Origin: Candidatus Methylomirabilis lanthanidiphila
GTDB lineage: Bacteria; Methylomirabilota; Methylomirabilia; Methylomirabilales; Methylomirabilaceae
NCBI GenBank assembly: GCA_902196205.1
Contig: CABIKM010000001.1
Span: 62,001 to 126,000, forward strand
Reading direction: 5' to 3'
DNA length: 64,000 nt
A program made the translations under genes and the position numbers. The notes beneath the pieces were generated by a model. The model was not told the origin of the DNA and made no database searches. It saw nothing but the letters and a program-made list of their open reading frames with translations. Of this stretch, positions 2,549-10,811 are shown piece after piece (positions within the stretch are counted from its first letter, which is position 1; each line of letters starts with the position of its first letter).

Positions 2549-3409
2549 ATGAATAACAGTAGCAACACAGAGGATTCGATAAGGACGATTGGCCAAATTT
2601 TGCAGGAAGCGCGGATGGCAAAGAGCCTTACGATCGAAGCGGCTGCGGCGGCCAGTAAGGTCCCCCTCTCCTTCGTCCGGCTGATGGAGCAGGAACAGTT
2701 CTACCTGGTTCCTGATACATTGTATCTCACCCGCTTTCTGACCGAATACGCCGCGTTCCTTGGTCTTGATTCCAAGCAGCTCTTAACGCAGCTAAAGGAA
2801 CAGATGAAAGCGGCCAGGGTAAGCGAACTGTCGCATGCGGTACCATCAATCGACTCTCGGATCGATCTTCGCCGTCTGCTGATCTACCTGCTGCCTGCGG
2901 CGGCCGTCATTCCCTTGATCTTTATCGGACTCTCCCTTTTCTCCGGCCCGTCACCAACAGCACCGCCGGCCCAGGACTCACCCGTACCGTCGTCGGCTGA
3001 GACGGGCACGCCGCCGCCGGAGAGTCTCGTCGCCACTCAGCCCAGCCCGCAAGTCGCCCCCCTTGGCGCGGCACAACCAAAGGAAGTCGCCACAGCCCAA
3101 CCGATCACTGCTACCCCAGGACAGGAGCCACAGAGTCCGTCTGCTCGGTATAGACTGTGGGCTGCGGCAAAAGAGACAACCTGGCTTGCGGTAGCCGCCG
3201 ACGGGGCGCCTCGAAGAGAAACCCTGTTGCGCCCAGGCGAGACGGCGCAGTGGTGGGCGAACAATAGATTTATCGTGACGATCGGCAATCCCCGAGGGGT
3301 AACCATTTCGCTGAACGGCAGGCTGATTGCGTTGAAGGGAGAATCGGGGCAGGTGATTCGAAATCTTGCCTTACCTGAAGACAGCGGGCCGTCTCCGGCA
3401 GGGCAGTAG
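2549..3409 (+). CDS. RodZ-like HTH / single-TM / DUF4115 protein
   Basis: A 286-residue protein. The ATG at 2549 is preferred over an upstream TTG because an AGAGGA ribosome-binding site precedes it. Residues about 10-85 form an HTH_25-type helix-turn-helix (TIGQILQEARMAKSLTIEAAA). Residues about 110-135 are one hydrophobic membrane segment, followed by a Pro/Thr/Ala-rich linker. The last about 80 residues match the DUF4115 fold of RodZ (RYRLWAAAKETTWLAV, then PGETAQWWA). RodZ ties MreB to the membrane in cell-shape control. No mre genes are nearby, so the shape role is inferred from architecture. Confidence 0.8.
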   Translation: MNNSSNTEDSIRTIGQILQEARMAKSLTIEAAAAASKVPLSFVRLMEQEQFYLVPDTLYLTRFLTEYAAFLGLDSKQLLTQLKEQMKAARVSELSHAVPSIDSRIDLRRLLIYLLPAAAVIPLIFIGLSLFSGPSPTAPPAQDSPVPSSAETGTPPPESLVATQPSPQVAPLGAAQPKEVATAQPITATPGQEPQSPSARYRLWAAAKETTWLAVAADGAPRRETLLRPGETAQWWANNRFIVTIGNPRGVTISLNGRLIALKGESGQVIRNLALPEDSGPSPAGQ

Positions 3410-3422
3410 GGTGGGGGTCGGA

Positions 3423-4364
3423 ATGAACCACGGCATCGCTCACAACCACGGGGATTTTGTGGGTCGGCGCCTGCAGATCGGGATCGTTCTGAACCTCCTG
3501 TTTGCCGTAGCCGAGTTGACGGCAGGCCTGACTGCCGGCAGCCTCGCGCTCATAGGTGATGCGTGGCATAACTTCAGCGACGTCATCGGGCTGGCTGTTT
3601 CATGGGTTGCGCTTCGGCAGGTAGAGCGGCCCGCCAACGAACGGAAGACATTCGGCTATCACCGGGCCAGTATCCTCGCCGCTCTCGCTAACGGGATCGC
3701 ACTGATCGGCATTACCCTGTGGCTGTTCTACGCAGCGATCAATCGACTGGGATCGCCGGTTGTGCCGGAGGCGCCCGTGATGATGGCGGTGGCAGGGATC
3801 GGGTTTCTGATCAATGTCGGGGTCGCCCTGTCGCTTCGGCGAGGGACCAGGGATCTCAATATCCGCAGCGCCTTTCTGCACCTGCTGAACGATGGGTTTG
3901 TATCGCTTGGCGTCGTGGCGGCGGGCGCTATCATCTTGTTCAGCGGTTGGAGCCTGATCGACCCGCTCCTGAGTTGTGTGATCGGGCTGTTGGTGCTGGT
4001 CGGCTGCTGGGACATCGTGGCGGAAACGGTGAATGTGTTGATGGAGGGCGTTCCACGCGGGGTCCAGATGGATCGCCTCTTGCGGGCCGTACGCAGCTTC
4101 CCGGAGGTCACGGATGTGCACGACCTGCATGTCTGGAGCCTCAGCTCGCACGTCTATGCGATGAGCTGCCACCTGCAGGTCGCCGATCTTCAGAGCAGCT
4201 ACGGCGATCGACTCCTCGAACGGATCAACCAGATGCTGAAGGAGCGCTTCGGCATCGCCCATACAACGTTCCAGCTCGAGGCCGAGGCCTGCACGCTTGA
4301 GCAGGCCTGCACCCTCAATTATTCAGAAAATCGCAGTCAGCAGTCAGTAGTCAGCAGTCAGTAG
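3423..4364 (+). CDS. Cation diffusion facilitator (CzcD/ZitB-type metal exporter)
   Basis: A 313-residue inner-membrane transporter with an N-terminal His-containing start (MNHGIAHNHGD) and about six membrane helices. The transport-site motif GDAWHNFSD (D46, H49, D53) lies in helix 2 and a second HLLNDGFVS motif in helix 5. A cytoplasmic ferredoxin-like C-terminal domain carries DVHDLHVWSLSS. These are the hallmarks of CDF proteins that export Zn2+, Cd2+ or Co2+ in exchange for protons. The ATG at 3423 follows a G-rich ribosome-binding site. The last codons (RSQQSVVSSQ) are written by a seven-base tandem repeat, so the natural C-terminus has probably been extended by repeat DNA. Confidence 0.88.
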   Translation: MNHGIAHNHGDFVGRRLQIGIVLNLLFAVAELTAGLTAGSLALIGDAWHNFSDVIGLAVSWVALRQVERPANERKTFGYHRASILAALANGIALIGITLWLFYAAINRLGSPVVPEAPVMMAVAGIGFLINVGVALSLRRGTRDLNIRSAFLHLLNDGFVSLGVVAAGAIILFSGWSLIDPLLSCVIGLLVLVGCWDIVAETVNVLMEGVPRGVQMDRLLRAVRSFPEVTDVHDLHVWSLSSHVYAMSCHLQVADLQSSYGDRLLERINQMLKERFGIAHTTFQLEAEACTLEQACTLNYSENRSQQSVVSSQ

Positions 4365-4369
4365 TCAGC
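4335..4369. repeat. Heptamer tandem repeat (AGTCAGC/AGTCAGT, five units)
   Basis: Five consecutive seven-base units alternate AGTCAGC and AGTCAGT. The tract lies across the convergent 3' ends of the CDF exporter and the CbiX-like gene and supplies codons to both. Confidence 0.9.
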
Positions 4370-5292
4370 CTCGCTAAGGCAGATTTACTCGCTTTTTCCT
4401 TTCCTCTCTCCAGCAAATTGTTCCCTCCTCGCGCTATGGGTGTATGCAGCAGGCCGGCTGCATCAATCCAGTTTTCGATCTGCTCCTCAATCCAGCGTGT
4501 GAAGTGTGGGTGCGAGGCGATACCCTGGTCGTTTAGAGTGTAGTCGAGGCCGGAAAGCAATTTCCGGTATGGGCCGGCTCCGGCGATCCGATTCGAGACG
4601 ACGAGAACCCGCCCGTTTTCCCTTGACCCCTCTTTGATCATCTTGCGCACCTCCACCACGGCGCGCGCGCTCTTCTCCGGCCAGTCTTCGCGTACGGTGG
4701 CGACCTTGATGGCCTTGAACTTCGCGGGGGCCTTTTTCCGAATGAACTCGGCCCGTTTCTCCAGTTGCTCGATCCAGGACCGTTCATCCTCGTCGTCGCC
4801 GGAACCGTGAGCCAGGAGGATCACCGTCTCCCGATCCGGGGCCTGGCTCACCTCGAGGGTGCGCTGCAGGAGGATCTCGGCGATCAGGGGGTGGTCTCCG
4901 AACCCGCCACTCGTGGACAGGATCGCCCCGCTCCTGATGCGGGACGGCCCGCTCTTCTCGTTGTGGCTGTGGCTGACGGCGCCCATTGTGTTTCTGAGAC
5001 CCAGAACGAACTCGGTCTCCGCCTGGAAGCTCTGCGGGAGGTCGTACAGTCGGAGGACGTGGATTCTTTTGGCGCCCCGCGCCTCGACCTTATCGATGGT
5101 CGCCTGGAGGATCTCGTCGTCGGCCATCCCGAAGGCCACCTCGATGTTATACCGCTGCCGCAGCGGTTCAACGGCAGCGAGGATCCGTGTATTGTAGTAT
5201 TCACCCGCGCCGTGCGCCATCACGACAATTCCGACCTCCTCCCTGCGAAGCGGGAGGTAGTGGCTGGCCGTTTTGCGAAGCCAGCGTGACAC
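4351..5292 (-). CDS. CbiX/SirB-like chelatase-type protein, C-terminal half of a frameshifted gene
   Basis: Two CbiX-like units, each with the histidine expected of sirohydrochlorin chelatases: VVMAHGAGEYYN near the start and ILLAHGSGDDEDE in the second unit. The nominal start is a GTG. The same frame stays open and protein-like upstream (YDGRELLPDPL then VSRWLRK), which continues the upstream reading frame after a one- or two-base slip near 5325-5340. The whole was therefore probably one protein of about 580 residues. CbiX proteins insert Co2+ or Fe2+ into sirohydrochlorin, but the substrate here is unknown. The last codons come from heptamer repeat DNA. Confidence 0.75.
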   Translation of the reverse strand: MSRWLRKTASHYLPLRREEVGIVVMAHGAGEYYNTRILAAVEPLRQRYNIEVAFGMADDEILQATIDKVEARGAKRIHVLRLYDLPQSFQAETEFVLGLRNTMGAVSHSHNEKSGPSRIRSGAILSTSGGFGDHPLIAEILLQRTLEVSQAPDRETVILLAHGSGDDEDERSWIEQLEKRAEFIRKKAPAKFKAIKVATVREDWPEKSARAVVEVRKMIKEGSRENGRVLVVSNRIAGAGPYRKLLSGLDYTLNDQGIASHPHFTRWIEEQIENWIDAAGLLHTPIARGGNNLLERGKEKASKSALARLTTDC

Positions 5293-6098
5293 GAGAGGAT
5301 CGGGGAGGAGTTCCCGGCCGTCGTAGGCGCCGCGCCGGCGCTCAGCAGCGACTCGATCTTTTGGCTAAGCCGCATCGAACCGGTATGCTTGTAGCCCAGA
5401 TGGAAGGGCACCACCAGCGTGCGGAGGTCGGTCTTCTTGATCGCCCTCACGATGGTTGTCTCGGCCAGCGCGTTCCCCTGATCTCTGACGGCATCGGGGG
5501 CCTGGCCGGCGTAAAAGATCGCGATAGACATATCAGCCAGGTGAAGGGTCTCCTGGACCTCTACCGCAAGGCGCTCCAGCTCGCGGGTCATTGCGTCGGC
5601 CTCCTCCCGCGAGGTCGCCCCAAAACCGATCACGACGAGCCGCTCTTTACTCGGCTCTTTCGAGAGGGTTCTGACGCGGTCTTCGAGGATCTGCCGAGCC
5701 GGCGGGCTTCCCCCAAACACCGGTGCGACGCGGACCTTGGCGTTCGCCAGGAGATCTCTGGCCTTTTTCAGGTGGGGATCTGCTTCAGAGACGACAAAAG
5801 GAATCAGCACGATCTCCGTTGCCTCTTCGCGCTGCATCTCCGCAACGGCGCCCTCCAGCCTTGCGCGGACATCTCGCTGGTAGTCCTCGGTCAGGGAAAT
5901 AAAGACCAGACGCGTCAGGTGCGTGTTGCCAAATTCCGCCCATGCGGCCTTGATCTCTTCGTTGCCGAGATACCCGCGATCAGGGGCGATCACCAGAAAG
6001 CCTGGCGATGGGGAAGCGACGGCGCGGGCGGGTAGTCCACATCCAATACCTATCGACACCACCAACCATACCGTGAGAGCTCGAGCAAGCTTATGCAT
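5220..6098 (-). CDS. CbiX-like protein, N-terminal half with signal peptide (frameshifted)
   Basis: It starts with a clear signal peptide (MHKLARALTVWLVVSIGIGC, then ARAVAS), so the product should be exported. Two CbiX-like alpha/beta units follow, but the metal-binding histidine is missing in both: VIAPDRGYLG and VIGFGATS replace the usual AHGS. After SLLSAGAA the frame runs into an unrelated tail (PTTAGNSSP...), while the conserved continuation lies in the neighbouring frame. The two open frames overlap by 73 bases. Read together they give four CbiX-type units, the first two without histidine and the last two with it. Whether the shift is real or a sequencing error in a GC-rich run cannot be told here. 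Confidence 0.7.
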   Translation of the reverse strand: MHKLARALTVWLVVSIGIGCGLPARAVASPSPGFLVIAPDRGYLGNEEIKAAWAEFGNTHLTRLVFISLTEDYQRDVRARLEGAVAEMQREEATEIVLIPFVVSEADPHLKKARDLLANAKVRVAPVFGGSPPARQILEDRVRTLSKEPSKERLVVIGFGATSREEADAMTRELERLAVEVQETLHLADMSIAIFYAGQAPDAVRDQGNALAETTIVRAIKKTDLRTLVVPFHLGYKHTGSMRLSQKIESLLSAGAAPTTAGNSSPILSCHAGFAKRPATTSRFAGRRSELS

Positions 6099-6154
6099 AT
6101 GTCTCCTTCTCCTTTCAGTCCAAAAGACACGGTGTTAATCAGTCGTAGCCTAAT

Positions 6155-7898
<1,744 letters not shown>

Positions 7899-7915
<17 letters not shown>

Positions 7916-8054
7916 AGGGTTTTAAAGTCTTAATCTCCGAAGGAAGAGAAAGCAGTGCCTTCATCACAATCCCCAAGCTCAGAGCCAGGACAATGATTGC
8001 GATAAGGAGATACAACGCCAGCACCCGCTCTGTCTTCGCATTCCGATGTCGCAC
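7899..8054 (-). CDS. Possible small single-TM protein overlapping the kinase start
   Basis: A 51-codon GTG-started frame (MRHRNAKTERVLALYLLIAI...) with one strongly hydrophobic helix over residues about 11-36 and a charged N-terminus. Its stop TGA lies inside the kinase's first codons, an arrangement seen in coupled gene pairs. No family is recognised and no clear ribosome-binding site was found. The surrounding DNA contains other gene relics, so this may equally be the tail of a decayed gene. Confidence 0.35.
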
Positions 8055-8170
8055 TGCCTGTTCCGCTTATTGCTCGCCTTTGATGTAAAAGTTCACAAAC
8101 GTAATCGGGCTCTTCATTACCCACCCGGCCCTCGTGTCTCGCGACGATCCCCTTAACTGCACGGTACGCC

Positions 8171-8458
8171 TCAGAATAACCATTTCAACCCCAGCAGAAA
8201 CGTCCGCCCGGCCTCTTCCACCTTACGGCTCGTTGTGCCGTCGGCCGCCCTCTCTCGCTCGATTCTCTTCTCATCGGTCACGTTCTCGGCCTCGAACAAC
8301 ACAGCGACATTCTTGTAGATGCGTTGAGGTTGCTCGGCTTGTCTGTAATATCGCAGGCATGGAGGGTGAGGCGCGTATCCTGGCGCCTCATCGATTGTAG
8401 GGACCGACGTTTCCCGGTATTGAGCGTCGGCGACCCAACATCCGTTCTTAACCCACAT
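8171..8458 (-). pseudogene. Remnant of a TonB-dependent outer-membrane receptor (C-terminus only)
   Basis: The last 46 residues have the terminal signature of TonB-dependent receptors: VAVLFEAENVTDEKR, then EAGRTFLLGLKWLF with the final aromatic residue needed for barrel insertion. Upstream residues of the open frame do not resemble a receptor, and the plug and most of the roughly 600-residue barrel are absent. It sits beside hemP and an exbB-tonB chimera, which suggests the receptor belonged to a haem or siderophore uptake locus that has been deleted. Confidence 0.6.
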
Positions 8459-8556: not shown

Positions 8557-8745
8557 TTACTTCGTGAGAATCAATTTTCCATTGCGCGTGATACGCAAGA
8601 CGTACTCCTGCCCTTCGTGAATGATCACGAGTTCCCGATCGCGCTGGAACAGAGCCGCACTCTCGATCTTCCGCCGGCAGCGCAGCGACGGGGACGAGGC
8701 CGCAAAGCGATCAGTCCTGCTTGCGGGTTGCGCCTGTTTCAGCAC
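8557..8745 (-). CDS. hemP: HemP-family haem-uptake accessory protein
   Basis: A 62-residue protein whose C-terminal part (RELVIIHEGQEYVLRITRNG, ending KLILTK) matches the short HemP family. HemP genes usually stand beside TonB-dependent haem receptors; in some proteobacteria HemP activates receptor expression. The N-terminal half is Arg/Ser-rich and uninformative. It is the only intact member of the surrounding decayed uptake locus, so present function is doubtful. Confidence 0.7.
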   Translation of the reverse strand: MLKQAQPASRTDRFAASSPSLRCRRKIESAALFQRDRELVIIHEGQEYVLRITRNGKLILTK

Positions 8746-8798: not shown

Positions 8799-9266
8799 TC
8801 ACCTCAACTCGAACCGGACCGGCAGTGTGATCCACACGGCGATCGGCCGGCTTCCCTTGGAAGCCATGACCCCGAAGGCGCTGATCATGCCGGTGACGGT
8901 ACCCAGCAGGCCTAATAGTGGCGAGAGGGTGATGATGGTATCAAGGATCGGCAGGTACTTCCGCAACCGAGGCAGTTCGTCGTGGGCAGCGGCCTCCATG
9001 GCCAGCGTAGCGGAAGGGTTTTTGTGGCGGATTCCCGCCGCCAGGACCCGTGCGATCGGAGAAGGGGAAGCCTCACCAAGGCGAAATGCGTCTCCCCAGT
9101 TAGCTGCCGCCGCCAGTTCCAGTGCTCGATCGGCATCGGCCGCAGAGCGGACGCGCCACCAGAACCACCCGCGCTCGATGATCACGGCGAGGGAAAGCAC
9201 GGAGCAGCAGAGCAGGGGGATCATCACCAATCCCCCTTTGACGAGCAAAGCAACCAGCGCAGACAT
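8799..9266 (-). pseudogene. ExbB N-terminal part joined in frame to a TonB C-terminal tail (deletion scar)
   Basis: Residues 1 to about 135 are a normal MotA/TolQ/ExbB protein: a first membrane helix, a cytoplasmic loop (ERGWFWWRVRSA), then LSPLLGLLGTVTGMISAFGVMASKG. At this point ExbB should continue through its last helix, but the frame goes straight to SRPIAVWITLPVRFELR, which is how TonB proteins end. The simplest reading is one in-frame deletion removing the rest of exbB, all of exbD and most of tonB. The product cannot form a normal ExbBD-TonB motor. Its 3' neighbours are hemP and the receptor remnant. Confidence 0.65.
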
Positions 9267-9289: not shown

Positions 9290-9694
9290 TTAAGCTTTTC
9301 GATCCAGGATCTCCTTAATGAAGATCTGAAGTTTCTTGAGGGCCGCCTTATCATGGCCCGCGATTATCGCCATCACGAGACCGATAACCTCCTGGGCTTC
9401 CGGAAATGGTTCGGACGATCCAAGAGGGAATTGGAACAGGTCTTCGATTCTGACCTCCAGGACCGAGGCGACTCGTTGAAGGGTTTTTAAGGTCAGATTG
9501 CATCGCCCGGCTTCGATCCGCTGGAGGTATTTGTAGTTGACGCCCATTGCCTCTATCGCCTCCTGGCGAAGACCGCGCACCGACCGAAGGGCTCTGATCC
9601 TTTTCCCAAGGGTTACCTGGACATCTGAGAGTGAACGTATGCGACCGATTTGCCTCTTTTTAGCAAGGTTGACAGTTGGTGATATCGGTGCCAT
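9290..9694 (-). CDS. XRE-family helix-turn-helix regulator
   Basis: A 134-residue protein with a Cro/CI-type HTH over residues about 30-90: LGKRIRALRSVRGLRQEAIE, then MGVNYKYLQRIEAG and LKTLQRVASVLEVRIEDLF. A helical C-terminal tail may dimerise. It lies directly upstream of the exbB-tonB relic in the same direction and may once have controlled that locus. It is divergent from the bacterioferritin-like gene, so the 86-base gap between them could hold both promoters. Its target is unknown. Confidence 0.8.
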   Translation of the reverse strand: MAPISPTVNLAKKRQIGRIRSLSDVQVTLGKRIRALRSVRGLRQEAIEAMGVNYKYLQRIEAGRCNLTLKTLQRVASVLEVRIEDLFQFPLGSSEPFPEAQEVIGLVMAIIAGHDKAALKKLQIFIKEILDRKA

Positions 9695-9780: not shown

Positions 9781-10239
9781 ATGGACGTTCAGCGGGTGAT
9801 CGCAGGGCTCAATCGAGTGTTGGCCATCGAATATGCAGCCATGATTCAGTACCTCCAGGACAGCGTCCTGATCCAGGGCCTGGAGCGGGCGTACCTCGCC
9901 GACTTCTTCAGGGACCGGGCCAAAGATGAGATGGGACATGCAGAGCGCCTTGGCGACAAGATTGTCGCGTTGGGCGGCATTCCCACCATTGAGCCGGCGC
10001 TGATCACGCAATCGCTCGAGGTGGCCGAGATGCTTGGGCAGGGCCTGGCGGCGGAACGTGATGCCCTTGTAGCCCTGAAGGCGCTGTTGCCCGAGGTCCA
10101 GGACGATGTTCCCATCCGGGTGCTGATCGAGCAGCTTTGTTACGATACCCAGGGACACATCGAAAGCTTCGAAAAGCTCCTGGCCCAGAAGCGACTTGTC
10201 ATTGCTACCAAAGAAGTGCGCCTCAAACAGGTTGCCTGA
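9781..10239 (+). CDS. Bacterioferritin-like diiron protein
   Basis: A 152-residue four-helix protein of bacterioferritin length, with an AAAGGAGG-type site just before the start. Ligands visible by position are E17 (LAIEYAAM), E50 and H53 (KDEMGHAE), E92 (LAAERDAL) and H126 (GHIESF). M51 fits the methionine that binds haem at the bacterioferritin dimer interface. The glutamate expected three residues before H126 appears to be T123, so one ferroxidase ligand may be missing. The expected role is iron storage or detoxification in the cytoplasm. It is adjacent to the decayed iron-uptake locus and divergent from the XRE regulator. Confidence 0.78.
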   Translation: MDVQRVIAGLNRVLAIEYAAMIQYLQDSVLIQGLERAYLADFFRDRAKDEMGHAERLGDKIVALGGIPTIEPALITQSLEVAEMLGQGLAAERDALVALKALLPEVQDDVPIRVLIEQLCYDTQGHIESFEKLLAQKRLVIATKEVRLKQVA

Positions 10240-10683: not shown

Positions 10684-10745
10684 GTCATTCCGGGCTTGAC
10701 CCGGAATCCAGTGCCTTTCTGGTTTCCCGCTTTCGCGGGAATGAC
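10684..10745. repeat. Intergenic palindromic repeat (GTCATTCC...GGAATGAC)
   Basis: The outer arms GTCATTCC and GGAATGAC enclose two smaller hairpins, one around CCGGGCTTGACCCGG and one around CCCGCTTTCGCGGG. This is the look of a dispersed extragenic palindrome. It fills most of the gap between the hypothetical gene and the membrane protein gene. Confidence 0.8.
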
Positions 10746-10811
10746 GGCTCTTGTTGCGGTTGATGACGCTACATATCGATCGTAAATAGTACCGTGACCC
10801 TCTTTACGATC

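Follow-up and report, generated by a model that had tools for sequence, protein, structure and literature searches.

We analyzed a 64,000-nt stretch of the Candidatus Methylomirabilis lanthanidiphila genome (the window). The contig that carries it is 160 kb long and belongs to a 3.05-Mb draft assembly (90 contigs, 99.98% complete). A minus-strand ORF at window positions 8799-9266 encodes 155 amino acids, begins with ATG, and contains neither an internal stop codon nor a frameshift. The features of this ORF and its neighborhood are listed below; G009 and G011 are genomes of the same genus but different species, with reference loci L047 and L046, respectively.

8171-8326, minus strand: TonB-dependent receptor, last 51 codons (88% identical to G009 receptor residues 980-1030)
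8316-8328, minus strand: deletion junction 2, at CARCGCRTCT, a loss of ~2.96 kb compared with G009 (nucleotide alignment)
8557-8745, minus strand: hemP (hemin uptake protein family), intact (PF10636, E = 4e-18)
8799-8857, minus strand: 3' end of tonB, last ~15-17 codons and stop (alignment to G009 tonB)
8799-9266, minus strand: in-frame exbB'-'tonB fusion ORF, probable pseudogene (ORF, search of relatives, Pfam)
8850-8865, minus strand: deletion junction 1, a loss of 1,522 bp compared with G009, without a long exact micro-repeat (nucleotide alignment)
8858-9266, minus strand: 5' part of exbB, residues 1 to ~137 of ~200 (DNA identity 83% to G009, L047 15520 upward, and 86% to G011; PF01618 partial)
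9290-9694, minus strand: helix-turn-helix regulator upstream of exbB, intact (PF13560/PF01381; 74% to G009)
9781-10239, plus strand: ferritin-like gene, conserved flank (PF00210, E = 1.3e-19; 94-95% to G009/G011)

The initial annotation had read the ORF as an ExbB start that continues without a stop into the end of TonB, and sequence comparison confirmed it as ExbB residues 1 to ~137-138 followed in frame by the final ~15-17 TonB codons. In Pfam searches, the ORF matched MotA_ExbB (PF01618) with E = 8.6e-17 over profile positions 4-80 of 127 only; intact G009 ExbB covers positions 4-126. The C terminus of the fused product (the stub), GSRPIAVWITLPVRFELR, aligned with TonB residues 306-326 of G009, the last 21 residues of that protein (71%, E = 2.5e-5), and resembles the C-terminal end of G011 TonB, NQPIAAWVTLPVRFELR. 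When the stub was used as a query against 60 genomes, the G011 locus gave two matches, one to the ExbB portion (85%) and a second, ~1.5 kb away, to tail residues 135-155 (71%). The resemblance to ExbB and TonB is not due to chance. The TonB part is confined to the last ~15-17 residues, and no match to the TonB_C domain (PF03544) was found in the fused ORF with Pfam. Hydropathy analysis revealed two hydrophobic helices in the stub compared with three in intact ExbB, the third (VAEALIATAAGLLIAIATL) being absent. An ExbD partner is not encoded beside the stub, exbD having been deleted.

In both G009 and G011, the orthologous locus is entire, with the order ferritin-like gene, HTH regulator, exbB, exbD, tonB, hemP, TonB-dependent receptor, and cbiX-like gene (the last runs off the contig end in G011). 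The encoded proteins comprise 200 (ExbB), 137 (ExbD), and 325-326 (TonB) amino acids. Related exbB-exbD loci, mostly accompanied by tonB, occur in G004, G006, G010, and G014 and as a second locus in G011; in the stretches fetched, these have no hemP and no shared flanks. A dispersed repeat of the GTCATTCCGGGCTTGACCCGGAATCC type lies at window 10684-10746, and matches to it lie close to related loci in several congeners.

Nucleotide alignment with G009 placed window 8858-10654 on L047 15520-17320 and window 8317-8857 on L047 13456-13997. At the 8857/8858 junction, 1,522 bp (L047 13998-15519) is absent relative to G009, corresponding in that reference to the end of exbB, the complete exbD gene, and most of tonB (~310 of its 326 codons). 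The single deletion of exbB end, exbD, and most of tonB proposed in the initial annotation is thus borne out by the intact G009 locus, and both G009 and G011 are collinear with the window on either side of the gap. Compared base by base, similarity to the tonB arm gives way to similarity to the exbB arm within ~10 bases. The window reads, in the coding direction, TCC AAG GGA AGC CGG CCG ATC; the arms read TCC AGC GGC GTC (G011 exbB) and CAG GGG AAC CGG CCG GTC (G009 tonB), which places the break after the TCC codon or inside the next two codons. We considered a long micro-repeat as the substrate, but no fitting one was found: the joined window sequence, AAGGGAAGCCGGCCG, does not contain the CAACCAACCC of G011. 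In G011 itself, exbB and tonB share CAACCAACCC near both breakpoints (L046 ~1745-1757 and ~3242-3264), and from these sequences the repeat was not evidently the substrate of the deletion.

A second junction lies downstream of hemP. Window 8173-8327 aligned with L047 10343-10497, and the alignment from window position 8317 onward continued at L047 13456. Both arms share an imperfect micro-repeat, CARCGCRTCT (8/10 identical), present in the window in the joined form CAACGCATCTACAAG. This second deletion, ~2.96 kb when sized relative to G009 only, removed the receptor except for its last 51 codons; G009 alone was used for sizing because the G011 receptor is more distant (47% identical) and PepSY is a separate gene there. 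One 1,030-aa frame of G009 (L047 10341-13433) runs through PepSY_TM, a BNR-like stretch, and an entire TonB-dependent receptor and has a signal-peptide-like stretch in its middle; in G011, the separate PepSY and receptor genes stand in reversed order relative to G009. The sole hemP found in the genome sits between two deletion scars. The initial annotation correctly described the fusion and how it arose; it overlooked hemP and the larger receptor deletion in the same operon.

Beyond the receptor stub, a ~2-kb stretch (window 6114-8172) that neither the G009 nor the G011 locus contains carries a GAF-histidine kinase-receiver gene (6155-7915) and separates the receptor stub from the cbiX-like gene (window 4351-6098). 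The latter consists of two ORFs compared with one 560-aa ORF in G009. The split is caused by a 1-nt deletion at ~5335 in a GGCGCCGGCGCC-like stretch, which is either a real frameshift or an assembly error.

The missing 1,522 bp had no match anywhere in the 99.98%-complete genome. As a positive control, the identical search detected it in G009 (100%), in G011 (77%), and partly in G006. No exbD, tonB, or receptor of the lost locus type was found elsewhere in the genome, where the best match to the lost receptor was its own stub; relocation of the missing genes within the genome was ruled out by these searches. Both arms are collinear with an intact locus and the middle is missing from the genome, the pattern that defines a deletion remnant. 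Comparison of sequences shows the intact loci, both junctions, and the absence of the missing DNA. Other Ton-type genes are present: ExbD/TolR-type genes occur on contigs C48 and C23 only, the former as an exbB-exbD pair, and TonB_C genes on C14, C43, and C23. On C14, tonB adjoins receptors; C43 has a further TonB_C gene with a receptor, and the genome contains six Plug-domain receptors in all. ExbB-, ExbD-, and weak TonB_C-type genes stand in a row on C23, a cluster that looks like Tol.

The fused form was found in none of the 60 relatives. Only the window's own locus matched the full query (residues 1-155); matches in the relatives ended at residue 144 or earlier or covered the tail separately. 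A scan of GTDB contigs yielded seven relatives, none of them matching past residue 144. A conserved short protein, which would have spoken against a deletion, was rejected on these grounds. The exbB part of the stub carries 15 nonsynonymous (N) and 20 synonymous (S) unique changes, versus 10 N and 32 S in the two intact copies together, a contrast that is not significant (Fisher p = 0.09) and hints at a tendency toward relaxed constraint. Of 59 positions that do not vary among the relatives, a single one is changed in this part (P13L), so the deletion was probably recent. Taken with the open frame, this single change would fit either a recent deletion or a stub that is still somewhat constrained.

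We consider it very probable that an uptake operon has decayed here by two separate internal deletions, leaving the fused ORF as a pseudogene. The ancestral operon would have been HTH-exbB-exbD-tonB-hemP-receptor, of the kind that energizes uptake of iron or heme compounds across the outer membrane. One deletion would have joined exbB at codon ~138 to the last ~15-17 tonB codons, the join falling in frame by a 1 in 3 chance. The other would have removed the receptor save its last 51 codons, along with the N-terminal PepSY part if this was present as in G009. In the ExbB-ExbD complex, ExbB helices 2 and 3 form a channel around ExbD. With helices 1 and 2 kept, helix 3 and ExbD gone, and only the very end of TonB present, proton-driven work is not expected of the stub; lacking nearly all of the TonB domain as well, it most probably persists as a non-functional remnant. 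We infer this loss of function, the substrate, and replacement by other Ton genes: TonB-dependent uptake presumably now proceeds via the exbB-exbD pair on C48 and the tonB genes on C14 and C43.

Both junctions rest on one assembly, a draft of 90 contigs, and they could have been created by merging reads of two strains; the nearby 1-nt deletion in the cbiX-like gene, if an assembly error, would point the same way. We regard such an artefact, which includes the collapse raised in the initial annotation, as very unlikely. The missing middle is on no other contig, so it was not mis-joined to another place; the two deletions in one operon are separate and both clean; and the 160-kb contig runs on through conserved flanks on both sides of the operon remnant. 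Less probable still is that the fused ORF yields a short membrane protein that has kept a role or gained a new one, for example in modulating the ExbB-ExbD complex that remains. Its frame is open, ExbB helices 1 and 2 are almost unchanged, and the upstream HTH gene and hemP are intact, but the stub is present in one genome only, lacks helix 3 and ExbD, has an N/S ratio that leans toward relaxation, and stands in an operon that has lost further parts. Most improbable of all, in our view, is the narrower proposal that the stub is expressed and has been kept as a small protein that inhibits or modulates what is left of the Ton complex.

Decay of the operon is therefore our preferred reading: the case is an ordinary, well-preserved loss of a dispensable uptake operon and not a new protein or mechanism. 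The in-frame join (a 1 in 3 chance) and the intact relatives make the remnant unusually readable. It documents how a TonB/heme-type uptake operon was lost piece by piece in a Methylomirabilis (NC10) lineage whose intact sister loci can be compared, and calls for caution, as automatic annotation would label the stub ExbB. None of the papers covered by a literature search joined Methylomirabilis, TonB, and ExbB; one of them (PMC3831626), which to judge by its title concerns TolQ overexpression in E. coli, contains exbB, exbD, tonB, in-frame fusion, and deletion together. The locus resembles the ExbB-ExbD-TonB systems of G009 and G011 in gene order, flanks, and orthologous ExbB N-terminal and TonB C-terminal residues, but the end of exbB, exbD, and ~95% of tonB are missing. 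Likewise, it shares an intact hemP and a recognizable receptor C terminus with HemP-linked TonB-dependent receptor uptake loci, whereas its receptor is cut to the last 51 codons. As in bacterial pseudogenes and chimeric ORFs made by deletion, two partial genes are joined between flanks collinear with those of relatives; unlike the usual examples, the join is in frame and two deletions have struck one operon.
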